A stretch of DNA of 64,000 nucleotides, taken from contig SNWL01000003.1 of the NCBI GenBank assembly GCA_004362315.1, positions 496,001 to 560,000 of the forward strand. The letters are read 5' to 3'. This document shows positions 474-48,242 of this stretch, piece after piece. The notes below the pieces were generated by a model. The model saw only the letters and a list, made by a program, of their open reading frames with translations, did not search any database and was not told the DNA's origin. The position numbers were made by a program, and so were the translations under genes. The DNA is from Mycobacterium sp. BK086 (GTDB taxonomy: Bacteria; Actinomycetota; Actinomycetes; Mycobacteriales; Mycobacteriaceae). Numbering within the stretch: position 1 is the stretch's first letter; the number at the start of each line of letters is the position of its first letter.

Positions 474-1067
474 TTAATCCCGGCCGGTGACGATCTCCAC
501 GAACAGCTTGTGCACCCGCCGATCCCCGGTCATCTCGGGGTGGAACGCGGTGGCCAGCACCCGGCCCTGCCGCACCGCCACGATGTGGTCGCCGGCGCGC
601 GCCAACACCTGCACAGCCGGCCCGACCCGCTCGACCCACGGCGCACGGATGAACACCGCATGCGCGGGACCATCCAGGCCCTCGAAGTCGATGTCGCCCT
701 CGAAGGAATCCACCTGACGCCCAAAAGCGTTGCGCCGCACCGTCATATCGATACCGCCCAACGGCACCGCCTCACGGCCCGGCGCACCGGCGTCGAGGAT
801 CTCGGAGGCCAGCAGGATCATCCCCGCACACGAACCGTAGGCCGGCATCCCGTCGGCCAGGCGCTCCCTCAGCGGCTCCAGCAGGTCGAATTCACGTAGC
901 AGGTGGCTCATCGTGGTGGATTCGCCGCCCGGGATGACCAGGGCGTCCACCGTGTCGAGTTCGCTGCGGCGACGCACCGTGCCCGCCTGTGCACCGGCCT
1001 CCTGCAGGGCCGCCAGGTGCTCACGGGTGTCGCCCTGCAGAGCCAGCACGCCCACCCGCACGCTCAC
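474..1067 (-). CDS. pdxT: PdxT, glutaminase subunit of pyridoxal 5'-phosphate synthase
   Basis: PdxT hydrolyses glutamine and passes ammonia to PdxS, which builds pyridoxal phosphate from ribose 5-phosphate and glyceraldehyde 3-phosphate. The product (197 aa) has the class I glutaminase signatures: PGGESTT near residue 47, the nucleophile cysteine in YGSCAGMI near residue 79, and the His-Glu pair in AFHPEMTGD near the C-terminus. The frame is open far upstream, but the family N-terminus ([10 protein letters not shown]) fixes the start at GTG 1067, giving a 4-bp GTGA overlap with the thioesterase stop. Its partner pdxS lies one gene upstream, so pdxS-tesB-pdxT look like one transcript. Confidence 0.95.
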
Positions 1068-1906
1068 GAGCCGGTGTATCCGCGCTTGTAGCGCGTCAGC
1101 CCCTCCTGCATGACGGCCGCAACCATCTCGCCGTACCGGTTGAAGATCCGGCCCTGGGTCAGCGAGCGGCCGCCGCACGCCGACGGTGAGGACTGGTCGT
1201 AGAGCAGCCACTCGTCGGCCCGGAACGGCCGCATGAACCACATGGCGTGATCCAGTGAGGCGATGTTGAGGTGCTTGCGTTCCTCGGGATGCGTGACCTG
1301 CGCCGAGCCGAGCAGCGTGAGGTCGCTCATATAGGCCAGCGCGCAGATGTGCAGCACGTGGTCGTCGGGCAGCGGGTCCTTGTGCTTGAACCAGACCTGC
1401 TGTTGCGACGCCTTGCCCGGCAGCCGGGCCACCTGGTCGCGCGGGACGATGCGGACGTCCCATTCGGCGAACTGGGAGAAGCCCGCGTCGTCGAACACGC
1501 CACCCTTGGAGATGAACCCGGGCAGGTCGTCGGGCGGCGGCGCGGCCGGCATTTCGTCCTGGTGCTCGATACCGCTCTGATCACTCTGGAACGACGCCGA
1601 CATCGAGAAGATGGTCTCGCCGTGCTGGATCGCGTTGACCCGCCGGGTGACGAACGAACCGCCGTCACGCAGCCGCTCCACGGTGTACACCGCGGGGGCG
1701 GTGGCGTCACCGGGCCGCAGGAAGTAGCCGTGCAGCGAGTGCACCTGGAATGCGGGATCCACGGTGCGCACCGCCGACACCAGGGACTGGCCGGCCACGT
1801 GGCCACCGAATGTCCGCTGCAGGAAACCGGATTCGGGGCTGAAGACCGCACCCCGATAGATGTTGACCTCGAGTTGCTCGAGATCGAGGATCTCTTCGAT
1901 CGCCAC
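1064..1906 (-). CDS. tesB: Acyl-CoA thioesterase II (TesB family)
   Basis: It hydrolyses acyl-CoA thioesters to free acid and CoA in the cytosol. The 280-aa product has the usual length and double-hotdog architecture. The TesB catalytic set is visible: the aspartate in SLDHAMWF (about residue 216), the serine/threonine region [11 protein letters not shown] and the glutamine in VMQEGL near the C-terminus. Translation starts at GTG 1906, only 3 bp after the pdxS stop, and ends overlapping pdxT by 4 bp. A thioesterase between pdxS and pdxT is a mycobacterial arrangement (Rv2604c-Rv2606c); no functional link to vitamin B6 synthesis is evident. Confidence 0.92.
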
Positions 1907-1909
1907 GCG

Positions 1910-2818
1910 TTACCAGCCGCGCTGGGCCAGTCGGTGCGGCTCCGCGATCTCCTCGACGTTGATTCCGACCATGGCCTCACCCAGTCCACGCGACACCCGT
2001 GCCAAGACATCGGGATCGTCGAAGAAGGTGGTGGCCTTGACGATGGCGGCGGCCCGCACGGCGGGGTCGCCGGACTTGAAAATGCCGGAACCGACGAACA
2101 CGCCTTCCGCGCCGAGCTGCATCATCATCGCGGCGTCGGCCGGGGTGGCGATACCGCCGGCGGTGAACAATGTCACCGGCAGCTTGCCCGCCCTGGCGAC
2201 TTCCACAACCAGGTCATAGGGCGCCTGCATGTCCTTGGCGGCGACGTACAGCTCATCTTCCGACAGCGACGACAACCGCCGGATCTCCGCGCCGATGGAT
2301 CGCATGTGAGTGGTGGCGTTGGAGACGTCGCCGGTGCCGGCCTCACCCTTGGAGCGGATCATCGCCGCGCCCTCGGTGATGCGGCGCAGTGCCTCGCCCA
2401 GATTGGTCGCGCCGCAGACGAACGGGACGGTGAACTTCCACTTGTCGATGTGGTGGGTGTAGTCGGCCGGCGTCAGCACCTCGGACTCGTCGATGTAATC
2501 GACACCGAGGCTCTGCAGGATCTGCGCCTCGACGAAGTGCCCGATGCGGGCCTTGGCCATCACCGGGATGGTGACCGCCGAGATGATGCCCTCGATCATG
2601 TCGGGGTCGCTCATCCGCGATACGCCGCCCTGGGCGCGGATATCAGCGGGGACGCGCTCGAGCGCCATGACGGCCACCGCACCGGCGCCCTCGGCGATCC
2701 GCGCCTGCTCGGGGGTGACGACGTCCATGATGACGCCGCCCTTGAGCATCTCCGCCATGCCGCGCTTGACCCGAGCGGTACCGGTCTGCGCGGGGCTGCC
2801 CGAGCCGTTGGTATCCAC
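1910..2818 (-). CDS. pdxS: PdxS, pyridoxal 5'-phosphate synthase lyase subunit
   Basis: PdxS forms the TIM-barrel dodecamer that makes pyridoxal phosphate. Recognisable segments include [19 protein letters not shown], the Schiff-base lysine region [11 protein letters not shown], and the phosphate-binding [19 protein letters not shown]. The GTG at 2818 gives 302 aa, the family length, and is preceded by AAGGGA; a longer reading from 2866 adds an unconserved leader and was not used. It is the first gene of the pdxS-tesB-pdxT run, after a 69-bp gap from the Nudix gene. Confidence 0.95.
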
Positions 2819-2887
2819 TGTCAGTCCCTTCGTTTGATACGGATCCAGTGTAAAGGGCGGACCCAAACTGAATAATTCCGCTGTTCG

Positions 2888-3925
2888 TCAGCGGATCGGG
2901 TGTAATTCCGTGTCCGGCCCGCCACGTCCGTCGGCCAGCAGATTCGCCTCCTCGAGCAGTTCCCCCAGCTGCAGCGGATACACCGTCTGCCCGCCCGCGG
3001 CCAGCTGCTCGATCGTCGCGGAATCACACCACCGGTGGCCGTGAATGTACCGCAGCTCCAACTGGGTGCGCCCGGCCGCGGTCGGTTCGAACCGGGCCGT
3101 GCGGTGCACGAAGTAGAACTCCTGGCTGGACACCACGGTGCCGTTGAAGTCGATCAGCGAATCACGGCGCCAGACCGGGCCGACCATCTGGACCGGGTCC
3201 ACCCGCAGCCCGGTCTCCTCGGCGATCTCACGGACGGCGGCGTCGACCAGCCGCTCCCCCGGTAATGCCTGCCCGCCGACGGTGAACCACCAGCGCGGTG
3301 CCACACCGGTCGTGACAGCTGGATCGGATCCGCAGAACAGCAGCACCGCGCCCCGGTCATCGAGCAGCACGACGCGCGCCGACGTGCGGCGGTCGACCTG
3401 CTCGACGGCTCCCGACGGCGCGGTGTCCGCGCGTTCGGCGATCTCGAAGTAACTTGGCAGCGGAGCGGTACCGGCCAGCCGCAGCCACCGGACCGGGCGC
3501 CGTTCCCGCAGCGCCAGGGTGTCGCGCACGGCATCGTTGTGGAACCGCCGGGCCAGCAGCACTCGGGCTTCGGCGTCGGCGAGCTCGGCGACCAGCGATA
3601 CCGGCATCGATGTCGGGTCGACGGTCGCCAGGGCCGCCGACAGCTCGTTCTCGGCGGCTTCACGGCCGGAGCGGGGCGCGCGTTCGGCAGCGTCAGCCAG
3701 TGTGGCGAGGCGCTTGCCCTCGGGCCGTCCGCGGTAGGTGTCTGCGGCTACCGCGCGGGCGACCACCGCCCGGCGGGCCAGCGCGCCGTCGAGTGCCTGC
3801 CAGGACAGGTCGTAGCGGATGTGCAGCCGGTCCAGCCGGCTGGCGGTCTGCAGGGCCAGCAGCGCGCTGACGACCAACACCAGGATCAGCAGTGCGGTCA
3901 GCGTCCAATACAACCCCGGCGCCAT
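2888..3925 (-). CDS. Membrane-anchored Nudix hydrolase (Rv2609c-like)
   Basis: An N-terminal membrane segment (about residues 6-26) is followed by an alpha-helical linker of about 150 residues and a C-terminal Nudix domain. The Nudix box GX5EX7REUXEEXGU is complete: G-QALPG-E-RLVDAAV-REIAEETGL, about residues 224-246. The family hydrolyses nucleoside diphosphates linked to another group; the substrate here is unknown. The gene starts 1 bp after the pimA stop. Its place in the phosphatidylinositol-mannoside operon, together with the membrane anchor, suggests work at the membrane on a nucleotide-linked substrate or by-product; that is inference. Confidence 0.85.
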   Translation of the reverse strand: MAPGLYWTLTALLILVLVVSALLALQTASRLDRLHIRYDLSWQALDGALARRAVVARAVAADTYRGRPEGKRLATLADAAERAPRSGREAAENELSAALATVDPTSMPVSLVAELADAEARVLLARRFHNDAVRDTLALRERRPVRWLRLAGTAPLPSYFEIAERADTAPSGAVEQVDRRTSARVVLLDDRGAVLLFCGSDPAVTTGVAPRWWFTVGGQALPGERLVDAAVREIAEETGLRVDPVQMVGPVWRRDSLIDFNGTVVSSQEFYFVHRTARFEPTAAGRTQLELRYIHGHRWCDSATIEQLAAGGQTVYPLQLGELLEEANLLADGRGGPDTELHPIR

Positions 3926-3926
3926 C

Positions 3927-5087
3927 TCAGTTCGATCCCCGAGTCGCTTCGCTCCGGCCCGCCGATCCAGCGACCCTGACCTTCATCCCCGCGCCGGCCA
4001 CCGTCTCGTAGACCCGCATGATCTGGTCGGCCACCACCGGCCAGTCGTAGCGCAGCACCGCGGTATTCGCCGCCGCCACGTAGCGCTTGCGCAGGGCGTT
4101 GTCGTCGAGCATCTCGATCAGCGCGTCGGCCAACGCGTCGGAGTCCTCGACCGGAACCAGCCGGCCCGCCTCGCCGTCGAGCAGCACCCGCCGGAACGCG
4201 TCGAGATCGCTCGCCACCACCGGGGTCTGCGCGGCCATCGCCTCGACGAGCACGATGCCGAAGCTCTCACCACCGGTGTGCGGCGCGCAGTAGACGTCGG
4301 CACTACGCAGCGCCGACGCCTTCTCGGCGTCGTCGACCTGACCGAGGAACCGCAGATGTCCCGCCAGATCGCCGCACTTGTCCCGCAGCTCGTCCTCGTC
4401 GCCGCGCCCCACGATCAGGATCTCGACGTCGGCGAAGCGTTCCACCAGTGTCGGCAGCGCGCCCACGAGCACCTCCATGCCCTTGCGCGGCTCGTCGAAA
4501 CGGCCGAGGAACAGCACGGTCTTGCCCGGCCGTGGATAGCCCTCCAGCCGCGGGGCCGACTTGAGGGCCGCGACGTCGACGCCGTTGGGGATTTCGACCG
4601 CGTCGGAGCCCAGCGCCTCCATCTGCCAGCGCCTGGCCAGATCGGAGACCGCGATCCGGCCGATGATCTTCTCGTGGAAGGGCCGCAGAATCCCCTGAAA
4701 TACGCTGAGCGTCAACGACTTTGTGGTCGAGGTGTGAAACGTCGCCACGATCGGCCCCTCAGCGGCCTGCAGCGCCAGCATCGACAGGCTGGGCGCGTTG
4801 GGCTCGTGCAGGTGCAACACGTCGAATTCGCCTTGGGCGAGCCACTTCTTGACCTGCCGGTGGGTGGCGGGCCCGAACCTCAGCCGGGCCACCGAGCCGT
4901 TGTAGGGAATCGGCACCGCCTTACCGCCGGAGACCACGTAGTCGGGCAGCTTCACATGCGGCGACGACGGCGCGAGCACGCTCACCTCGTGACCGCGGGC
5001 GCGCATCACCTCGGCGAGCTGCAGGATGTGCGACTGCACCCCGCCGGGCACGTCGAACGAGTACGGGCAGACCATGCCGATACGCAT
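3927..5087 (-). CDS. pimA: PimA, GDP-mannose-dependent phosphatidylinositol mannosyltransferase
   Basis: PimA adds the first mannose to the 2-position of phosphatidylinositol on the cytoplasmic face of the membrane, starting phosphatidylinositol mannoside, lipomannan and lipoarabinomannan synthesis. The 386-aa GT-B fold protein shows the N-terminal glycine-rich loop (PYSFDVPGGVQSHIL), the catalytic histidine in ATFHTSTTKS near residue 118, the GDP-binding GRFDEPRKG, and the EX7E motif in GGESFGIVLVEAM. The start overlaps the patA stop. The order pgsA1-patA-pimA is the conserved mycobacterial operon. Confidence 0.95.
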   Translation of the reverse strand: MRIGMVCPYSFDVPGGVQSHILQLAEVMRARGHEVSVLAPSSPHVKLPDYVVSGGKAVPIPYNGSVARLRFGPATHRQVKKWLAQGEFDVLHLHEPNAPSLSMLALQAAEGPIVATFHTSTTKSLTLSVFQGILRPFHEKIIGRIAVSDLARRWQMEALGSDAVEIPNGVDVAALKSAPRLEGYPRPGKTVLFLGRFDEPRKGMEVLVGALPTLVERFADVEILIVGRGDEDELRDKCGDLAGHLRFLGQVDDAEKASALRSADVYCAPHTGGESFGIVLVEAMAAQTPVVASDLDAFRRVLLDGEAGRLVPVEDSDALADALIEMLDDNALRKRYVAAANTAVLRYDWPVVADQIMRVYETVAGAGMKVRVAGSAGRSEATRGSN

Positions 5088-10461: not shown

Positions 10462-10959
10462 GTGAAGCTCAGCGACCTGGCCGGCCGCCCGTTGACCTAC
10501 GCCGAGGTGGGTGCGACGGCAGCGGATCTGCCTGTGGGCTACCACCATGTGCGGCTGTCCTCGCGGATCGGAAGCGGGCGGGCCCGTTTCGAGCAGGCGG
10601 CGCATGCCGTGATGCGCTACGGCATGCTGCGCGGCGCGGGACTGCGGGTCACCGCGACCACCGAGGTGGCCGAGGTCGGCGCCGACGTGCTTGGCCGGCT
10701 GGGACCGTTCTCGGCGCCGTGCCGGGTGGTCTACGTGGTCGACGAGGCCAATCGGCGCGGTTTCGCCTACGGCAGCCTGCCGGGGCACGCGGTGGCGGGT
10801 GAGGAGATGTTCGGGGTGCGCTTCGAGCCCGCAGACGAATCGGTGCATGCCGAGGTGGTGGCGTTTTCCAGGCCCGCAACATGGTGGAGCCAAATCGGGG
10901 CGCCGGTCGCCTCTGTTGTCCAGCGGGTGATCACCCAGCGCTACCTGTCGGTGGTCTGA
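10462..10959 (+). CDS. DUF1990 family protein
   Basis: The 165-aa product matches the DUF1990 pattern. It has an early PLTYAEVG, a central FEQAAHAVMRYGML, a block GFAYGSLPGHAVAGEEMFGV typical of the fold, and a C-terminal helix ending in QRYL. The family is a START/SRPBCC-like fold of unknown role, common in actinobacteria. Translation starts at GTG 10462, divergent from the thioesterase. The following GAF-ANTAR gene starts 27-39 bp after its stop, so the two may be cotranscribed. Confidence 0.85.
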   Translation: MKLSDLAGRPLTYAEVGATAADLPVGYHHVRLSSRIGSGRARFEQAAHAVMRYGMLRGAGLRVTATTEVAEVGADVLGRLGPFSAPCRVVYVVDEANRRGFAYGSLPGHAVAGEEMFGVRFEPADESVHAEVVAFSRPATWWSQIGAPVASVVQRVITQRYLSVV

Positions 10960-10985: not shown

Positions 10986-11714
10986 ATGGCACATGTCATG
11001 TCGGTCGACAACGGATCCCCGCCGACTGACGGAGATGTGGCGGCCCGCATCGCCGACATCGCCCGGGGACTGTACACGCGCAGGAGCCACAGGGGCGGGG
11101 TGATCGCCGGACTTGTGGAGCACGCGGTCGCGGAGCTACCCGGGGTGGACTACGCGAATGTGACTGTCCTGTCGGCTCACAACGACATCGAAACGCCGTC
11201 GGCGACGCACGAGTGGGCGGTGCGCATCGACGACATCCAGCGCCGCCACCGCGAAGGCCCATGCCTGTCGTCGGCCTGGCACCACCAGGTGGTCCACGTC
11301 GATGACCTGCAGCACGAGACCCGGTGGCCGAAGTTTCGCGCCGACGCACTGGAAACCACCCCGGTACGCAGCATCATGGGATTTCAGCTGCATCTGAGCG
11401 GCAAGCCGATGGGCGCGCTCAATGTATTCGCCGAGCGCGCCAACGCTTTTGGCGATCAAACCAGGCAATTGGGATCGTTGTTGGCCGCGCATTCGGCGCT
11501 CGTATGGGACGCCGCCCAGCGCGAGGTGCAGTTCCAGGAGGCGCTGGCCAGCCGTGACATCATCGGCCAGGCGAAGGGCATGATCATGGAGCGCTACACC
11601 ATGAACGCCGACCGCGCCTTCGAGATGTTGCGTCAGCTCTCGCACGACACCAACGTCCCACTGGCCGCGGTAGCCGCCAAGATCGTCGATGCGGCACAGT
11701 CGAATCCGCACTGA
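10986..11714 (+). CDS. GAF and ANTAR domain response regulator
   Basis: An N-terminal GAF-like sensory domain (about residues 20-165) precedes an ANTAR RNA-binding domain (about 180-240) with the signature RDIIGQAKGMIMERY and a final helix PLAAVAAKIVD. ANTAR proteins bind paired hexaloop RNA hairpins and act as antiterminators. The frame is open upstream into the DUF1990 gene; ATG 10986 or ATG 10998 are the realistic starts. No paired hexaloop target was identified nearby. Confidence 0.87.
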   Translation: MAHVMSVDNGSPPTDGDVAARIADIARGLYTRRSHRGGVIAGLVEHAVAELPGVDYANVTVLSAHNDIETPSATHEWAVRIDDIQRRHREGPCLSSAWHHQVVHVDDLQHETRWPKFRADALETTPVRSIMGFQLHLSGKPMGALNVFAERANAFGDQTRQLGSLLAAHSALVWDAAQREVQFQEALASRDIIGQAKGMIMERYTMNADRAFEMLRQLSHDTNVPLAAVAAKIVDAAQSNPH

Positions 11715-11761: not shown

Positions 11762-12487
11762 GTGACACCAGCACGTTTCGACCACGCAGTGGTCGTGATT
11801 CCCGCACACAACGAGGCGCGCGCATTGCCCCGCTGCCTGACCGCGATGCTGACCGCGGCTGTCCGGGTCGACATCCCGGTCAGCGTCATCGTTGTGCTGG
11901 ATGCGTGCGACGACGACAGCGCCGCACTCGCGGATCACTTCGGATCACGCGTTCATTTCGTCGAGGTCGACGCCCGCAATGTGGGTGAAGCCCGAGCGGC
12001 CGGTTTCACGTTCGCACGCAATCAATTACACGACGGCCTCGACGCCGCGCGCGTCTGGTACGCGACCACCGACGCGGACAGCTGCGTCGACCGGAACTGG
12101 CTGGCGAGGCAGCTCAGCGCGGACGCCGACATGGTGCTCGGCATCGTGCGCATCGCCAACTGGCGTCACCTCCCCACCGCGGCCATCCAGCGTTACCGAC
12201 GCGCGTACCGCGCCAAGATCCACCCCGGCCATGATGCCCATGACCACATCCACGGTGCGAACATGGGATTCACCGCCGACGCGTACTGGCACATCGGCGG
12301 ATTCGCCGCCCTGACAAGCGGCGAGGACGTCGATCTCGTCCGCCGCTTCGAAGTGGCCGGGTTTCGCATCCGGCGCGACACCCGCCTGTCGGTGGCCACC
12401 TCAGCGCGCCGGATCGGCCGCGCCCCGGCCGGATTCGCGGCTCACATCCGTTCGGTTTTGAGTGGGCCGGAACGGGATTCGGCATGA
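11762..12487 (+). CDS. Family 2 (GT-A) glycosyltransferase
   Basis: The 241-aa product opens with the GT2 nucleotide-sugar signature VVVIPAHNEARALPRCL, has an aspartate cluster LDACDDDS and a DXD-like TTDADSCVDRNW (about residues 100-111), and a C-terminal acceptor block HGANMGFTADAYWHIGGF followed by SGEDVDL, whose ED is the likely base. No membrane segment is obvious. GTG 11762 lacks a clear ribosome-binding site. It is the first of four genes overlapping by 4 bp each (ATGA or GTGA) and therefore translationally coupled. The sugar donor and acceptor are unknown. Confidence 0.85.
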   Translation: MTPARFDHAVVVIPAHNEARALPRCLTAMLTAAVRVDIPVSVIVVLDACDDDSAALADHFGSRVHFVEVDARNVGEARAAGFTFARNQLHDGLDAARVWYATTDADSCVDRNWLARQLSADADMVLGIVRIANWRHLPTAAIQRYRRAYRAKIHPGHDAHDHIHGANMGFTADAYWHIGGFAALTSGEDVDLVRRFEVAGFRIRRDTRLSVATSARRIGRAPAGFAAHIRSVLSGPERDSA

Positions 12488-13419
12488 CAGCCGCAATCGT
12501 CCAACGATGGCTCGACTCCGGCGAATTGAACCTGCCCCTGCCCGGTTCAGGCCAGACCCAGGTGCGCTGGAACGCACTGGCCGACCTGTGCGAGCGCGAC
12601 GTGGTGGCGGGCCGGCTCGCCGAGGCACACACCGACGCGGTGGCGATTCTGGCCGAGCTGGGCGGACCGCCTGCGCGGCCCGGCCGACTGTGGGGCGTCT
12701 GGGCGGCCGAGACGCCCGAGACCTGCCTTCAGGCCCATCAGAGCAGCGGGGATCTGGTGACACTGAGCGGAACCAAGGCATGGTGTTCGGGCGCCGGCCT
12801 CTGTTCGGACGCGTTGGTGACCGCGCGCACCGACACCGGCGAGCGCGGGCTGTATGCGGTGGATCTGCGCGCTGCGGGTGTTCACCCGCTGCCGAGCAGT
12901 TGGCGTAACGCGGGCATGGCCGACTCGGACACCCGCTCGGTGCAATTCAGCGCGGCACCAGCGGTTTCGGTGGGCAAACCCGGCGACTACCTGCGCCGAC
13001 CCGGATTCTGGCACGGGGCGGCCGGTGTCGCCGCATGCTGGCTCGGGGCCGCCCGTGCCGTGGCGGCACCGCTCTATCGCAGAGTGGCCGAGCGAGCAGA
13101 CGGCGACCCGCACGCCGCAGCACATCTCGGCGCGGTCGACGCCGCGCTCGCCGCAGCGCACGCACTTCTGGTGCGGACCGCGCAAGAGGTCGACGCCGCT
13201 CCGCGCAGCGAGCACGGCGAAATCTCGGCCCGCCGACTACGCGCGGTGGTCGAAGTCGCCGTCGATGAGGCAATCGGACGGACAGCTCGCGCCTTGGGCC
13301 CCGCCCCGCTCGCCCTCGATGCGGCGCACGCACACCGTGTCGCCGATCTGACGATGTACGTCAGGCAGAGCCACGCGGAGCGAGATCTCGCGACGTTGGG
13401 CATCTTGGTGGCCCGATGA
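12484..13419 (+). CDS. Acyl-CoA-dehydrogenase-like protein
   Basis: The 311-aa product is shorter than the usual ~380 aa of acyl-CoA dehydrogenases but keeps the fold landmarks: a central beta-domain segment VTLSGTKAWCSGAGLCSDALVT (residues around 95-116), and a C-terminal helical FAD domain with AVVEVAVDEAIGRTARALGP. The catalytic glutamate is not obvious, so it may use a non-CoA substrate or have lost dehydrogenase activity. It overlaps the glycosyltransferase and the deacetylase by 4 bp each, which argues for a shared pathway. Confidence 0.75.
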   Translation: MTAAIVQRWLDSGELNLPLPGSGQTQVRWNALADLCERDVVAGRLAEAHTDAVAILAELGGPPARPGRLWGVWAAETPETCLQAHQSSGDLVTLSGTKAWCSGAGLCSDALVTARTDTGERGLYAVDLRAAGVHPLPSSWRNAGMADSDTRSVQFSAAPAVSVGKPGDYLRRPGFWHGAAGVAACWLGAARAVAAPLYRRVAERADGDPHAAAHLGAVDAALAAAHALLVRTAQEVDAAPRSEHGEISARRLRAVVEVAVDEAIGRTARALGPAPLALDAAHAHRVADLTMYVRQSHAERDLATLGILVAR

Positions 13420-14183
13420 GCACCGTCGTGCCCGGCAACTGCGCGCGGTTCGCCGCCGCGCCGATCGCAGACGGCGGGACACCTGTCACGGAGTGGCTCG
13501 CGTGGCAGCCCGACTTCCCCGCTTTGCGTCTCGACCGATGTCCCGGGTTGGTGGTCGTCGCCGCACATCCGGATGACGAGACACTCGGCTTCGGCGCTGC
13601 GGCCAGTGACATCGCCGCCCACGACATCGAGGTGCACACCGTCATCGCCAGCGACGGCGGGATGGCATGGCCGGACCTGTCGGCCTGGGAACAGGACCGT
13701 CTTCAAGAGTCACGCCGGCACGAGTCTCAATGCGCGGCAGACCTATTGGGCCTTCCCCGGCCGTCGTTCCTCGGGCTGCCCGACGGCGGTCTGGCAGCGC
13801 ACGAATCACATCTCGCCGACATCCTGACCGATATCCTCACCGCCCGCGGAGCGGGCATGTGGTGCGCGGCTCCCTGGCGGGGTGACGGTCACCCCGACCA
13901 CGAAGCCGCCGGCCGCGCCGCGGCGATCGCCGCCCGTCGCACCGGTGCGGTGTTGATGGAGTATCCGATCTGGATGTGGCACTGGGCGCACCCGGACGAC
14001 GCCGACGTCCCGTGGAATCGTGCAGTCCGCCCCTCGTCGGAACCTGTTGCGGCACTACGCAAACGGCAGGCCATCGACGCGTTCCGGAGCCAGCTCCACC
14101 CACAGGCGAGTGATCGTGACGCGATCTTGCCGCCGTTCGTCGTCTCCCGGATAGACCAGATCGGCGAAGTGGTGTTCCGGTGA
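13416..14183 (+). CDS. PIG-L family zinc-dependent deacetylase
   Basis: The 255-aa product contains the PIG-L/LmbE/MshB zinc motif AAHPDDETLGFGA (about residues 49-61) and the second metal ligand in GHPDHEAAGRAA (about 157-168). Family members remove N-acetyl groups from N-acetylglucosamine conjugates, as in mycothiol synthesis (MshB) and GPI synthesis. In this operon it sits between an acyl-CoA-dehydrogenase-like gene and a NodS-like methyltransferase, which suggests deacetylation of a glycosylated intermediate made by the first gene. The substrate is not known. Confidence 0.88.
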   Translation: MSTVVPGNCARFAAAPIADGGTPVTEWLAWQPDFPALRLDRCPGLVVVAAHPDDETLGFGAAASDIAAHDIEVHTVIASDGGMAWPDLSAWEQDRLQESRRHESQCAADLLGLPRPSFLGLPDGGLAAHESHLADILTDILTARGAGMWCAAPWRGDGHPDHEAAGRAAAIAARRTGAVLMEYPIWMWHWAHPDDADVPWNRAVRPSSEPVAALRKRQAIDAFRSQLHPQASDRDAILPPFVVSRIDQIGEVVFR

Positions 14184-14800
14184 CATTGCCCGACACATAC
14201 TTTGATGACCTCTACGACGGATCGAGCGACCCGTGGCAGCTATCGTCGCGATGGTATGAACGGCGCAAGTACGCCATCACCATGGCGCTGCTGCCCGACG
14301 ACCGCTACCGGCATGCCTTCGAACCGGGCTGCTCGGTGGGTGTGCTCACCGAGCAGCTGACCACCCGCTGTGATCATGTGACTGCTACCGACATCGCCGA
14401 AGCCGCACTGAGGCAGGCCGACCTCCGGCTTCGGCAGTGCGGGCGCCGCGAGGCCGCGACCCTGCTACGACAGTCCTTCGACATGCCCTGGCCGGCAGCC
14501 GATTTCGACCTGGTAGTGATCTCGGAGATCGCCTACTACTTCGACAGCTCGTCGCTGCGGTCGATACTCGATCGTGAACTGCCTCGCCTGGGAGCCCACG
14601 TCACAGTGGTCGCCGCGCACTGGCGCCATGCGGTCGCCGACTATCCGCAATCCGGCGATTCCGCGAACACCGTCATCGGTGCCACCGCCGGGCTGCATCG
14701 CCTCGGTGGATATCGAGACGACGACGTCGTCATCGATGTGTTCGGCACTGGGACAACACAGTCGGTCGCGGCGCGAACCGGGGTGCCGGGCGCGCAATAG
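14180..14800 (+). CDS. NodS-like SAM-dependent methyltransferase
   Basis: The 206-aa class I methyltransferase resembles NodS, the N-methyltransferase of rhizobial lipochitooligosaccharides. It has an N-terminal YFDDLYDGSSDPWQLSSRWY, the SAM-binding EPGCSVGVLTEQL (about residues 48-60), TATDIAEAAL, and the FDLVVISEIAYYF block. GTG 14180 overlaps the deacetylase by 4 bp. It is the last gene of the four-gene unit; its stop lies 4 bp from the convergent DUF7159 gene. Confidence 0.85.
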   Translation: MTLPDTYFDDLYDGSSDPWQLSSRWYERRKYAITMALLPDDRYRHAFEPGCSVGVLTEQLTTRCDHVTATDIAEAALRQADLRLRQCGRREAATLLRQSFDMPWPAADFDLVVISEIAYYFDSSSLRSILDRELPRLGAHVTVVAAHWRHAVADYPQSGDSANTVIGATAGLHRLGGYRDDDVVIDVFGTGTTQSVAARTGVPGAQ

Positions 14801-14804
14801 CCGC

Positions 14805-16304
14805 TCAGGGCATCTGGTTGAAATTCGGGGCAGGCGGTAAACCGGGGATCCGCGGTGGAGGAGGCAGGCCGGGGATCAGCGGCCGCCGAGTCGTGGTGGT
14901 GCTGGTGTCCCACTCGGTGGTGGTCGTCGTCGGTGTGGTCGTGGTGGTCGTCGGCGTCGTCGTCGTGGTCGTGGTGGTCGTTGTTGTCGTGGTGGTAGTC
15001 GTGGTGGTTGTGGTGGGCGGCGTCGTTGTCGTCGTTTCCACCGTGACGACGGTGGTTTGGGGCGGCGGAGCCTGCACCTGCTCGGTGACGGTGCTGATCG
15101 GCGGGTTGGTCATGGTGACCGTTTCGGTCGGCGCCGCCGGCGGCGGGGCCGCGGGGCTCTCCATGGAGTTGACCACGGTGGCCGGCGCGGGCTTCACCGA
15201 CTGGGTGGCCGGTGTGTCCGGGGTGCTGGCACCGGTGAGGGTGTAGGCGAAGCCGCCGACCGCGACGGCAGCGACGGCCGCAGCCCCGCCGAGTAGCAAT
15301 GGCACGCTGCGGGTCAGGCCCGATCCCCGCCGCGCGGGCTGCTCACCGCCGAGGATGGACAGATCCTCGTCGTTGGTCGCGTAGTCGTCATATCCGGTGC
15401 GGTAGCCGCCGTAGTCGTAGTCACCGTACGCGTGCGGCTGGCCTTGCGAGACCGGCTCTTCGGGGGTTTCGTCACTCGACCACGCCAGCGCGGCCGCCAT
15501 GGTGGCTGACTGTGGGCCGACGTCGGCGATCAGCGGAGCCGGCGCGAGTCCGGTCGGCGCGTCGGCAGCGAACTGGCGCGCCGCGGCCAGGCTGGCCCCC
15601 AACGCGGCGTCGAGTTGCGGATGGGCCGACATGATGACCGGCAGCCGCAGATGTTCCGAGAGTTGTTGAGCGGCCGATGCTATCGCGTCTCCATCGCCGA
15701 TAGCCGCGACGGCACTGAGGTTTTCGCGGGACATCCTGGCCTGACCCAGCGTGTCGTCGACAAACCCGCCGAGCTCGGCGAGAACCCCCGACCGGTGCGC
15801 GGTCTCCCCGATCTGACGGTAATCGGCGCCGGCATCGGCCAGGGTCACCGAGGCGCCGTCGGCACCGATGTCGCACACCAGGATGACGCCGTTGCGCGGC
15901 AGTCCGGGGTCGCTCTGCAGTGAGCGCAGCGCGGCGGTCGCGTCGGAGACCAGCAGCGGCGGCGCCGCGGCACCGGCCAGCGCGGGCAGGCTCCACATCG
16001 CGTCACGCAGCGCGTCGCGGCGGCCCGGCCCCCAATGCGCCGGAACTGCCACACCCGACACCGCCGCGAGACCAGCCCCCTCGGCATCCGCCAGCGCGGA
16101 CAGCGCCAGAGCCAGCAGCTGCTCGGCGCGGTAGGAGCCGCCGTCGTCACCGACGAGTGGCATCGGGTCGCCGACCCGATCGACGAAACCGGTCCACACC
16201 TGGTCACCGAGCGTCAACTCAGCCGGGCAGATCAACGAGGGGCCCCCGGCGCGGGCCGCGACCAGACTGGTCGGGCGCACGGAGATACCCAGTGGTTCGG
16301 TCAC
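14805..16304 (-). CDS. DUF7159 family membrane protein with poly-threonine tail
   Basis: The 499-aa product has an N-terminal actin/Hsp70-like domain (about residues 1-260, MTEPLGISVRPTSLVAARAG start), an acidic tyrosine-rich linker, one membrane segment (about 330-352) and a long extracytoplasmic tail. The tail contains a tract of about 45 residues that is almost pure threonine, then proline-rich repeats. The architecture is typical of a mycobacterial family with no assigned function. Translation begins at GTG 16304. The threonine tract is a low-complexity DNA repeat and a likely site of length variation. Confidence 0.85.
   Translation of the reverse strand: MTEPLGISVRPTSLVAARAGGPSLICPAELTLGDQVWTGFVDRVGDPMPLVGDDGGSYRAEQLLALALSALADAEGAGLAAVSGVAVPAHWGPGRRDALRDAMWSLPALAGAAAPPLLVSDATAALRSLQSDPGLPRNGVILVCDIGADGASVTLADAGADYRQIGETAHRSGVLAELGGFVDDTLGQARMSRENLSAVAAIGDGDAIASAAQQLSEHLRLPVIMSAHPQLDAALGASLAAARQFAADAPTGLAPAPLIADVGPQSATMAAALAWSSDETPEEPVSQGQPHAYGDYDYGGYRTGYDDYATNDEDLSILGGEQPARRGSGLTRSVPLLLGGAAAVAAVAVGGFAYTLTGASTPDTPATQSVKPAPATVVNSMESPAAPPPAAPTETVTMTNPPISTVTEQVQAPPPQTTVVTVETTTTTPPTTTTTTTTTTTTTTTTTTTTPTTTTTTPTTTTTEWDTSTTTTRRPLIPGLPPPPRIPGLPPAPNFNQMP
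14890..15056 (-). repeat. Low-complexity GTC/GTG triplet tract coding poly-threonine
   Basis: On the plus strand the tract is dominated by GTG and GTC triplets with little interruption. On the coding minus strand these are ACC/ACG/ACA codons. Mixed synonymous codons show it is kept as protein sequence rather than being a recent slippage expansion. Confidence 0.85.
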
Positions 16305-44978: not shown

Positions 44979-47900
44979 ATGCCCCTGGGAAGGGCCGACA
45001 TTGTGGCGTCCGCCGACTCGGTGGTGTGGGGTGAACACATCGGTCACCGACAGAGTTCGAAGCTACCCGGCGCGCTACAGAGTCTTGCTCAGATCGACTC
45101 GGTACTCGACGGTCGCTGTCCCGCTGTCTTTCTTGACTTCGACGGCACGCTTTCCGACATCGTCGACGACCCGACCACAGCCACATTGGTTCCCGGTGCC
45201 GCACAAGCATTGCGCGCATTGAGTGAGGTGTGCCCGGTCGCGGTCATCAGCGGCCGCGCCCTGGCCGACATCCGAAGCAGGGTGGGTATCGCCGGGTTGT
45301 GGTACGCCGGATCGCACGGCACGGAACTGGTAGGACCGGAGGGCGAAGCACACCGCCATCAGCCCGCCGACGATGCGATTCCCCGTGTCCAGAACGCCGT
45401 CGCCGACCTGGGCCCGCTTCTGGACGCAATCCCCGGCATGCTGATCGAGAACAAACAGCTTGCGGTGGCGGTGCACTACCGGATGGTGGCCGCGGGCCGG
45501 GTATCAGAGATCGTCTCTGCGGTGGAGTCCGTGGGCCGACGTCACCAGCTTCGCGTCTGCCACGGCCGAAAGGTCATCGAACTGCTGCCAGAGGGCAAGT
45601 GGGACAAGGGCGACGCGACCAACTGGATCATCAGCTGCCTCAACCGTCCCGAAGGTCTTGTGCCGATCTATATCGGTGACGATCTGACCGATGAAGACGC
45701 ACTGGGCGTTGTCCGACATGACGGCATCGGCGTCCTTGTGCGGAGCAGCGAGACTGGCACCCGCAGTACCGCAGCACATTTCACTCTCGACTCGCCCCAC
45801 GAGGTCGCCCAATTTCTTGAACACCTGGCCGAGCAACTCATCCTGATTCGCCAGGAAGCCGACGGTTGGAGACTTGTCTTCGATGACTACCGCCCCGAGT
45901 CCGAGCGCCTGCGGGAGGTGTTGTGCGCCGTCGGAAACGGCTACCTCGTGACCCGTGCGGCCGCACCCGAGGCCGTCAATGGTCCCGCCCACTACCCCGG
46001 CACGTACGCCGCCGGCGTCTACAACCGGTTGACCGACGTCGTCGACAACGTGTCCGTCAGCAACGAGAGCCTTGTCAACCTCCCCAACTGGCTTCCCCTC
46101 ACCTTCCGCATCGACAGCGGATCGTGGTTCGAGGTCGACGACGTTGAACTGCTGTCCTATCGGCAGACCATCGAATTCCAGCCGGCGGAGTGCGTCCGCG
46201 AGCTGCGCTTCCGCGACGCCGAGGGGCGCTGCACCTCCGTGACCCAGCGCCGATTCGCCTCGATGCGCGATCCTCATGTCTGCGCACTGCACATGACAAT
46301 CCATGCCGAAAACTGGTCAGGCTCTGTCGAACTGCGATCCGGTGTCGATACCACCGTCACCAACAGTGGCGTCCCGCGGTACCAACGGCTCTCGGCCCAG
46401 CACCTCGGCAGTATCCGGATCAGCGAATTGAGCGAGGGCGCGGTCCTGGTCGACGCGCAAACCGTCCAGTCCCTGGTGCCCATCGCGGTGGCAACCCGCA
46501 CCAGCCTCTGGCACGGCGATCAGGCCGTCGCGGCTACGTTCGTGTTCGACGATGAGCCGGCGACCGCTGGACACCGCATCACCACTGCAATGCAGATCGG
46601 CGAGTCGCTCACCGTGGAGAAGGTGGCAGTCGTCTTCACCGGTCGCGACCGCGCAATATCGGTTCCCTCCGACGCCGCCCAAGACCTTCTCGGCACGCTC
46701 GGCCGGTACTCAGATCTGTTCGACGACCACCGCAATATCTGGGCACAGCTATGGCAGAAATTCGATTTCTCAGCAGCCGGCTTTGTCGACTCCGAAACCG
46801 TTCTGCGCCTGCATATCACGCACCTGCTGCAGTCGCTCTCGGGTTACACCGCCGAAGTTGACGCGGGAGTGCCCGCACGTGGCCTACACGGAGAGGCCTA
46901 TCGAGGGCACATCTTCTGGGACGAACTGTTCATCGTGCCGTTGCTCACCTTGCGGCTGCCACAGGTTTCGCGGTCACTGCTCGGTTACCGCAGCCGGCGC
47001 CTTCCGCAGGCCCGCCGAGCGGCGAGTATCGCGGGCTATGCCGGGGCGATGTACCCATGGCAATCCGGCAGCGACGGCCGCGAAGAGAGCCAGCAACTGC
47101 ATCTCAATCCGCTCTCGGGGAGGTGGAACCCCGACGGCAGCCACCTGGCCCAGCACATCGGTTCGGCTGTGGCTTACAACATCTGGCAGTACTACCAGGT
47201 CACCGGCGACCGTCAGTACCTGATCGACCAGGGTGCCGAGATTGTCGTGGAGATAGCCCGATTCTGGGCCAGCCGCGCGCGATACGACAGCAACCATGGA
47301 CGGTATGTGATCGACGGCGTCATCGGGCCTGACGAATTTCATTCCGGTTATCCGGATCGGCCACATGAGGGGATCAACAACAACGCCTACACCAATGTGA
47401 TGGCGGTGTGGGTGATCGTGCGCGCCTTCGAGGTCCTCGCGACCCTGCCCCTACCCGACCGTCTAGACCTGCTCGATCGACTTCGCCTATCGGAGTCCGA
47501 ACTCGCACACTGGGATTCGGTGAGCAGGCACATGTTCGTTCCTTTCCATCATGGGGTGATCAGCCAGTTCCAGGGGTACGAGCTACTGGAGGAACTCGAC
47601 TGGGACGCCTACCGCCGGCGTTATGGCGATATCGGCAGGCTCGACCGCATCTTGGAAGCGGAGAACGATGATGTCAACCGCTACAAGGCCAGCAAGCAGG
47701 CCGACGTGCTCATGCTGTTCTACCTGTTGTCGGCCGACGAACTCAGGGAGCTGTTCACCCGGTTGGGCTACGAGTTTCGGCCGTATCAGATTCCGGACAC
47801 CATCAACTATTACTCCGCCAGGACCTCCCACGGGTCAACCTTGAGCGCGGTCGTCCACTCCTGGGTCACCGCTCGCGCCAATCGTGATCAAGCCGTGCGG

Positions 47901-48242
47901 TATTTCCAGCAAGTACTCAGCGCCGACATCGCCGACGTGCAGGGTGGCTCGACGACGGAAGGGATCCACCTGGCGGCGATGGCGGGCAGCATCGACCTAC
48001 TGCAGCGGTGCTTCACGGGGCTGGAAACGCGCGGTGAAAGGTTGGTGCTCGGGCCGATGTGGCCCGAAACCGCGGGCCCGCTGCGTTGTTCACTGTGGTA
48101 TCGGGGTCACCGGCTGCACCTTGTCATCAGTGGACGGGAGGCAGACGTCATCGCCGACCCGACCGGCGCACCCGAGATCGAAGTCAGCTGTCGAGGACGC
48201 GTCCAGCGCCTGGCCTCTGGGTGCACCATTCACGTCAGGTAG
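44979..48242 (+). CDS. Trehalose-6-phosphate phosphatase fused to GH65 phosphorylase
   Basis: The 1087-aa product starts with an OtsB-type HAD phosphatase (about residues 35-290; FLDFDGTLSDIVDDP, GDDLTDEDALGVV) and continues as a GH65 domain (about 300-1087). The GH65 part shows the catalytic glutamate in GVIGPDEFHSG, NNNAYTN and the phosphate-binding ASKQADVLMLF and SHGSTLS. M. tuberculosis Rv2006 (OtsB1, 1327 aa) has an additional N-terminal HAD domain that is absent here. The likely flow is trehalose 6-phosphate to trehalose, then phosphorolysis to glucose 1-phosphate or a related sugar phosphate. GTG 45003 after GGAAGGG is an alternative start. Confidence 0.88.
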   Translation: MPLGRADIVASADSVVWGEHIGHRQSSKLPGALQSLAQIDSVLDGRCPAVFLDFDGTLSDIVDDPTTATLVPGAAQALRALSEVCPVAVISGRALADIRSRVGIAGLWYAGSHGTELVGPEGEAHRHQPADDAIPRVQNAVADLGPLLDAIPGMLIENKQLAVAVHYRMVAAGRVSEIVSAVESVGRRHQLRVCHGRKVIELLPEGKWDKGDATNWIISCLNRPEGLVPIYIGDDLTDEDALGVVRHDGIGVLVRSSETGTRSTAAHFTLDSPHEVAQFLEHLAEQLILIRQEADGWRLVFDDYRPESERLREVLCAVGNGYLVTRAAAPEAVNGPAHYPGTYAAGVYNRLTDVVDNVSVSNESLVNLPNWLPLTFRIDSGSWFEVDDVELLSYRQTIEFQPAECVRELRFRDAEGRCTSVTQRRFASMRDPHVCALHMTIHAENWSGSVELRSGVDTTVTNSGVPRYQRLSAQHLGSIRISELSEGAVLVDAQTVQSLVPIAVATRTSLWHGDQAVAATFVFDDEPATAGHRITTAMQIGESLTVEKVAVVFTGRDRAISVPSDAAQDLLGTLGRYSDLFDDHRNIWAQLWQKFDFSAAGFVDSETVLRLHITHLLQSLSGYTAEVDAGVPARGLHGEAYRGHIFWDELFIVPLLTLRLPQVSRSLLGYRSRRLPQARRAASIAGYAGAMYPWQSGSDGREESQQLHLNPLSGRWNPDGSHLAQHIGSAVAYNIWQYYQVTGDRQYLIDQGAEIVVEIARFWASRARYDSNHGRYVIDGVIGPDEFHSGYPDRPHEGINNNAYTNVMAVWVIVRAFEVLATLPLPDRLDLLDRLRLSESELAHWDSVSRHMFVPFHHGVISQFQGYELLEELDWDAYRRRYGDIGRLDRILEAENDDVNRYKASKQADVLMLFYLLSADELRELFTRLGYEFRPYQIPDTINYYSARTSHGSTLSAVVHSWVTARANRDQAVRYFQQVLSADIADVQGGSTTEGIHLAAMAGSIDLLQRCFTGLETRGERLVLGPMWPETAGPLRCSLWYRGHRLHLVISGREADVIADPTGAPEIEVSCRGRVQRLASGCTIHVR

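Follow-up and report, generated by a model that had tools for sequence, protein, structure and literature searches.

What do four genes make that overlap one another by 4 bp at each of their three junctions and that encode, in order, a GT2-family glycosyltransferase (GT), a protein with the acyl-CoA-dehydrogenase fold (ACD), a PIG-L N-deacetylase and a NodS-like, S-adenosylmethionine (SAM)-dependent methyltransferase (MT)? They lie in a 64,000-nucleotide stretch of Mycobacterium sp. BK086 (contig SNWL01000003.1, positions 496,001 to 560,000 of the forward strand), the whole of which is called the window below (Table 1). We put at roughly 0.5 the probability that they are inherited together as one translationally coupled module whose product is a small amino-sugar conjugate, made probably in the cytosol. 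The gene structure, the overlaps, the co-inheritance in two phyla and the intact catalytic motifs of GT and PIG-L are established, and the open reading frames (ORFs) and their junctions confirm the unit of four coupled genes with three 4-bp overlaps that an initial annotation of the window had described.

A block shared by two phyla

Do the four genes stay together elsewhere? When the ACD protein alone was scanned against 84,980 species genomes, a scan that reaches close relatives only, 64 loci were retrieved, and at 56 of them the four genes all lie on the same strand in a stretch of 4 kb, a grouping that exceeds chance. By the same rule the unit is complete at 74 of 106 sites, namely the window and 73 of 105 other loci; five of these 105 come from a plasmid collection, and some are close strains or belong to one genome (L116, L117 and L127 are all from genome G030). 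Complete units occur in mycobacteria, Nocardioides, Kitasatospora, Pseudomonas, Acinetobacter, Burkholderiales and Legionella, and the unit is also carried on plasmids. The four genes are therefore a real co-conserved block across two phyla, as the initial annotation had proposed to check, and the refutation that it had named, absence of the four together from other genomes, does not apply. Its comparison with mycobacterial pathways was too narrow, in that other Actinomycetota, Pseudomonadota and plasmids have the unit as well.

Six arrangements are found among the 74 complete sites (loci L001-L030, with flanks of only about 1.5 kb, were excluded from the counts of arrangements and neighbours). 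The commonest are ACD-PIGL-MT-GT (39 sites) and GT-ACD-PIGL-MT, which is that of the window (30 sites); PIGL-GT-ACD-MT is found twice, GT-PIGL-ACD-MT and an order with a second PIG-L once each, and PIGL-MT-GT-ACD at a single site on a Legionella lytica plasmid. At five loci (L087, L115, L116, L117 and L118) PIG-L and MT are joined in a single reading frame. The 32 remaining sites hold ACD-MT-GT (nine), ACD alone (seven), ACD-PIGL-MT (five), ACD-MT (three), ACD-PIGL (two), no ACD (two) or one of four arrangements seen once each, and some of them are truncated at contig ends or have one gene on the opposite strand, as in Rhodococcus (L059), where GT is present and inverted. Over the 106 sites ACD varies least in its presence and PIG-L is lacking most often, which overturns the earlier view of the flavin step as an added one. 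That the four genes have changed order over two phyla and yet stayed together speaks strongly for a common product that is worth retaining.

The even genome samples tell a similar story. Among 158 Actinomycetota genomes searched at E<=1e-25, ACD is found in 19, MT in 17, PIG-L in 12 and GT in 19; every one of the 17 MT genomes has ACD, on the same strand and at most 831 bp away, ACD is present in 17 of the 19 GT genomes (on another contig in G217), and the 12 PIG-L genomes divide into eight with ACD and four with none. In 249 Pseudomonadota genomes sampled for ACD and MT, the former occurs in 22 and the latter in 31; MT lies within 994 bp of ACD in 22/22 ACD genomes, and the nine other MT genomes score at most 117 bits and have no ACD match. 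Eighteen of the 22 Pseudomonadota ACD regions were inspected (all except those of G277, G390, G429 and G459), of which 11 hold all four genes and 15 hold PIG-L. Closer to the window, 41 of 61 genomes of its genus and order, its own included, have an ACD match at E<=0.001.

The protein distances of the four families correlate with r of 0.83-0.93 over 46 dereplicated loci in a Mantel test that was run without an unrelated control gene and hence shows co-inheritance, not co-inheritance beyond what the species tree might give; its starting loci, again 74 in number, were picked by rules of their own (either strand, 4.5 kb, near full length). Overlaps of 4 bp were counted at 158 of 263 junctions at other loci, a figure biased upwards by the choice of the start nearest to such an overlap, and our conclusions on overlaps rest on the three of the window.

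Table 1. The four-gene unit, its junctions and the two genes ahead of it, in window coordinates
Feature	Position	Strand	Basis or remark
DUF1990 protein gene, upstream of the GAF-ANTAR gene	10462..10959	+	ORF, Pfam
GAF-ANTAR protein gene	10986..11714	+	start inferred, ORF open from 10881
GT, GT2-family glycosyltransferase, 241 aa	11762..12487	+	ORF, Pfam, alignment of 42 sequences
GT stop / ACD start, 4-bp overlap ATGA	12484..12487	+	
ACD, acyl-CoA-dehydrogenase-fold protein, probable flavoenzyme, 311 aa	12484..13419	+	ORF, Pfam, profile search
ACD stop / PIG-L start, 4-bp overlap ATGA	13416..13419	+	
PIG-L (LmbE-like) N-deacetylase, 255 aa	13416..14183	+	Pfam, metal-site motifs, solved relatives
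PIG-L stop / MT start, 4-bp overlap GTGA	14180..14183	+	
MT, NodS-like SAM-dependent methyltransferase, 206 aa	14180..14800	+	Pfam, solved relatives

Four enzymes and a possible product

What could the four enzymes do together? GT matches PF00535 (3.8e-12), and its DxD (D104/D106) and ED (E188/D189) motifs are invariant in an alignment of 42 sequences. PIG-L matches PF02585 (2.1e-23; 83.7 bits against a cut-off of 28.2) with its AHPDDE and paired-histidine motifs intact (H51, P52, D53, D54, E55, H159, D161 and H162 are invariant in 30 sequences), and its solved relatives include a diacetylchitobiose deacetylase (1.8e-21, the nearest), MshB (1.6e-15) and an N-acetylglucosaminyl-malate deacetylase (1.3e-14). 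MT matches the NodS family, PF05401 (5e-14); its closest solved relative is PDB 4isc (1.1e-31), whose record says just 'Methyltransferase', and NodS comes next. The scheme that follows is inferred in its sugar and acceptor, in the sequence of its reactions and their place in the cytosol, in the type of oxidation and in its link to stress. GT would transfer an N-acetylated sugar, probably N-acetylglucosamine (GlcNAc), to a small acceptor, PIG-L would take off the acetyl group and MT would methylate the resulting free amine; ACD would oxidise either this product or the acceptor, and for ACD a flavin-dependent oxygenase is likelier than a fatty-acid dehydrogenase; the final compound may serve in oxidative or desiccation stress.

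ACD is the least transparent of the four. Of the N-terminal, middle and C-terminal domains of an acyl-CoA dehydrogenase, only the middle one is recognisable in it (PF02770, 6.5e-7, with 29.9 bits in the window protein against a cut-off of 33.3); of 42 members, 40 match PF02770 at E<=0.01 and four the C-terminal PF00441, and alignments to known acyl-CoA dehydrogenases stop short of the C-terminal end. Thirty positions are invariant in 37 sequences, including an RQxH...D near the C-terminus. A profile of the family, compared with solved structures, places TdsC (8.9e-11), methanesulfinate monooxygenase (1.6e-9) and DszC (4.6e-9) on top, followed by an 'acyl-CoA dehydrogenase type 2 domain protein' (2e-8) and by acyl-CoA dehydrogenases from 2e-7, and also matches nitrososynthase and DnmZ at about 1e-3. 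Profile-profile alignment gives a slight lead to an HsaA-like protein (1e-5) over an acyl-CoA dehydrogenase-like one (7e-5), and within its own genome ACD is equally close to the monooxygenase and the dehydrogenase side (1.1e-6 and 1.3e-6). By these comparisons ACD appears about equally close to the DszC/MsuC flavin monooxygenases and to true acyl-CoA dehydrogenases and is probably a flavoenzyme.

Could ACD nevertheless be a true acyl-CoA or acyl-ACP dehydrogenase, in a unit that makes an acylated, N-methylated, Nod-factor-like glycolipid? The near-universal PF02770 match would fit, several records label the protein an acyl-CoA or acyl-CoA/acyl-ACP dehydrogenase, and with the single sequence as query the top solved match is human acyl-CoA dehydrogenase family member 8 (ACAD8, 0.00092), ahead of TdsC (0.0097); the C-terminal half of ACD matches acyl-CoA dehydrogenase names only, weakly. 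Yet the PF02770 score in the window falls below the cut-off, PF00441 is rare in the family, monooxygenases head the profile ranking and no acyltransferase is present among the four genes, and we consider this glycolipid unlikely. The label 'acyl-CoA-dehydrogenase-like' given by the initial annotation is right for the fold, and oxidation of an acyl-CoA, which would go beyond it, looks doubtful.

For the favoured amino-sugar conjugate, the oxidation might fall on nitrogen. PMC6165268 describes group D flavin monooxygenases as having a domain as in acyl-CoA dehydrogenases and as including N-hydroxylations, and names a sugar N-oxygenase in its reference list; according to PMC7347517, flavin-dependent N-hydroxylating enzymes accept amino sugars. 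By analogy with these statements, N-oxygenation of the methylated amine by ACD is plausible. At four loci (L100-L103, in G106, G137, G169 and G121), in which no PIG-L was found, the space between MT and GT is taken by a gene for a ferredoxin-NAD reductase-like protein, a possible electron partner of ACD; four further genomes (G116, G127, G188 and G207) have an MT-GT gap of similar size, from coordinates alone, and in the relative G030 a similar reductase adjoins ACD on the opposite strand (L127).

ACD without its partners and the question of stress

Besides the single-sequence ranking of ACD and the matches of its C-terminal half, several observations weigh against the amino-sugar reading. PIG-L is missing beside ACD at L100-L104, L107, L109, L114, L061-L063 and others, and at L031, L068 and L095 only a divergent PIG-L lies nearby, on the opposite strand. 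Five relatives of the window (G007, G010, G012, G015 and G023) have ACD, and none of the other three families is matched in them at E<=1e-15. One of these orphan frames, that of G012, is interrupted by TGA, and the four intact ones have ratios of nonsynonymous to synonymous divergence (dN/dS) of 0.07-0.12, similar to the 0.08-0.16 of other mycobacterial ACDs in the comparison, values that are rough because dS between mycobacterial ACD pairs is high (0.8-1.5). The orphan ACDs are under purifying selection, and ACD accordingly has a use without the other three. The cytosolic site is no more than probable, since GT has one 19-residue window with a mean hydropathy of 2.0.

Does ACD then act first and alone, on a common metabolite, with GT, PIG-L and MT later decorating its product to a glycoconjugate, such that ACD remains useful once the decoration is lost? 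The conserved orphans in four relatives speak for this order, as does a Janthinobacterium genome (G064, locus L070) in which ACD is accompanied by no match to GT, PIG-L or MT at E<=1e-15; so does the asymmetry between ACD without MT, seen in G017 and G074, and MT without ACD, seen in none of the 158 Actinomycetota genomes. At most sites, however, ACD shares both block and inheritance with the other three, and the ACD of G074 is split in two (L105) and may not be intact. We think this order possible without favouring it. As for the surroundings of such reduced units, an endonuclease/exonuclease/phosphatase-family gene directly follows the orphan ACD at all three loci scanned (L120, L121 and L123, from G007, G015 and G023), and in the relatives G017 and G036 PIG-L is the only one of the three partners found with ACD (E<=1e-15). 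Variants of other kinds exist too. At two Pseudomonadota loci (L128, 217-3287; L129, 6808-10134, with no GT seen in L129) the unit is joined by an additional PIG-L and by a TonB-dependent receptor, which hints at uptake of a product. At L114 (61-5324), a glycosyltransferase/sucrose-phosphatase-like protein and two more glycosyltransferase-like genes are followed by MT and ACD.

Is the conjugate, if the amino-sugar reading is right, a stress compound? In the fetched flanks, catalase occurs at 18 of the 105 loci, a raw count without a background rate, and these loci come from Cupriavidus, Acinetobacter (eight), Pollutimonas, Pseudomonas, Xylophilus, Polaromonas, Nocardioides and others, including two relatives of the window (L116 and L125). 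At the first of these (G030, 602-4854), a catalase gene is directly followed by the fused PIGL-MT and GT, a second cluster of that genome without ACD. The trehalose genes OtsA and OtsB are each found at 13 loci and Dps at seven. Catalase nearby in several genera, together with the occurrence on plasmids, suggests that the unit may belong to oxidative or desiccation tolerance, of which it may be an unrecognised part. Set against this, Acinetobacter supplies 11 of the 13 OtsA, 11 of the 13 OtsB, all seven Dps and eight of the 18 catalase loci; in the window, a search with these four queries gives no hit to catalase, OtsA or Dps, and the one OtsB-like match there is about 30 kb away. The stress role is a lead, not a result. 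A bolder version of the amino-sugar reading, to be taken as tentative, would have an undescribed pathway, spread over two phyla and present on plasmids, produce an N-methylated, N-oxygenated (or otherwise flavin-oxidised) amino-sugar conjugate for stress, with ACD as a new short oxygenase subfamily that is kept alone in some lineages.

In the window itself, the GAF-ANTAR gene and GT are separated by 47 bp on the plus strand and are possibly on one transcript. An RNA structure ahead of GT as an ANTAR target was rejected, as the 101-nucleotide stretch around the gap folds no better than its shuffles (z 0.07), and a SigF-type promoter, GTTT-N14-18-GGGTA, has no match in the window. Other near neighbours are a TetR regulator and a 499-residue protein (14805-16304, minus strand) that contains a long stretch rich in threonine and matches no Pfam family at E<=0.001. 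The OtsB-like match mentioned above is a long, trehalose-phosphatase-like frame (44979-48242, plus strand) that scores 63 bits to an Acinetobacter OtsB.

Comparison with known systems

How does the unit relate to pathways already described? None of the four proteins reaches any NCBIfam cut-off, models for mycothiol, bacillithiol, Nod factor and mycofactocin included, in keeping with the earlier claim that the four are not orthologous to a characterised pathway; within the open-licence PubMed Central (PMC) literature, as judged from listings, no publication was recognised as describing the unit. The initial annotation had also been reminded of Nod-factor synthesis (NodC, NodB and NodS). The likeness holds as far as MT belongs to the NodS family and both systems follow a logic of sugar transfer, deacetylation and N-methylation, and ends at the machinery. 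NodB is of the polysaccharide deacetylase type, whereas the deacetylase of the unit is a PIG-L, with no polysaccharide-deacetylase family in Pfam at E<=1; GT reaches no chitin-synthase-type model in Pfam or NCBIfam, no NodC or NodA relative is present among the four genes, and a scan of these and five neighbours finds no NodA-type acyltransferase. With MT at 55 bits against the cut-off of 300 of the NodS equivalog NF041650, membership of the Nod-factor pathway is rejected.

A second likeness, a glycosyltransferase combined with a PIG-L deacetylase, is to mycothiol synthesis, in which the two work on an amino-sugar conjugate, and the same logic recurs in bacillithiol. Might the unit then be a variant pathway to a low-molecular-weight thiol or redox buffer, working alongside catalase? 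The catalase neighbours would suit such a role, and the solved structures that the ACD profile ranks highest belong, by name, to enzymes of sulfur compounds. PIG-L, however, scores far below the models of both routes (30.4 bits against 224 for MshB and 23.4 against 277 for Mca; 45.5 against 182.5 for BshB1 and 34.3 against 195 for BshB2), which rejects membership of either, no ligase is present among the four genes, and neither route is known to have methyltransferase or flavoprotein steps. A thiol seems to us quite improbable, the least probable of the products considered. The glycosyltransferases differ as well, MshA being a GT4 enzyme and that of the unit a GT2, and the unit has a methyltransferase and a probable flavoprotein in addition. 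Mycofactocin glycosylation is likewise rejected: MftF gives GT its top NCBIfam score, though one of only 47.4 bits against a cut-off of 280.

There remain DszC, TdsC, MsuC and the sugar N-oxygenases of group D, which have the acyl-CoA-dehydrogenase fold and among which the ACD profile finds its best solved matches. ACD differs from DszC and TdsC (414-417 residues) in being about 100 residues shorter, and PF08028 was not detected in the window protein or in the 42 members; it scores 27 bits against the SfnB model, whose cut-off is 431, and the neighbours of the unit that are annotated in the window include no flavin reductase. ACD is a short acyl-CoA-dehydrogenase-fold family with a reaction open to study in vitro, and the unit that it belongs to is probably a variant of known amino-sugar conjugate pathways.

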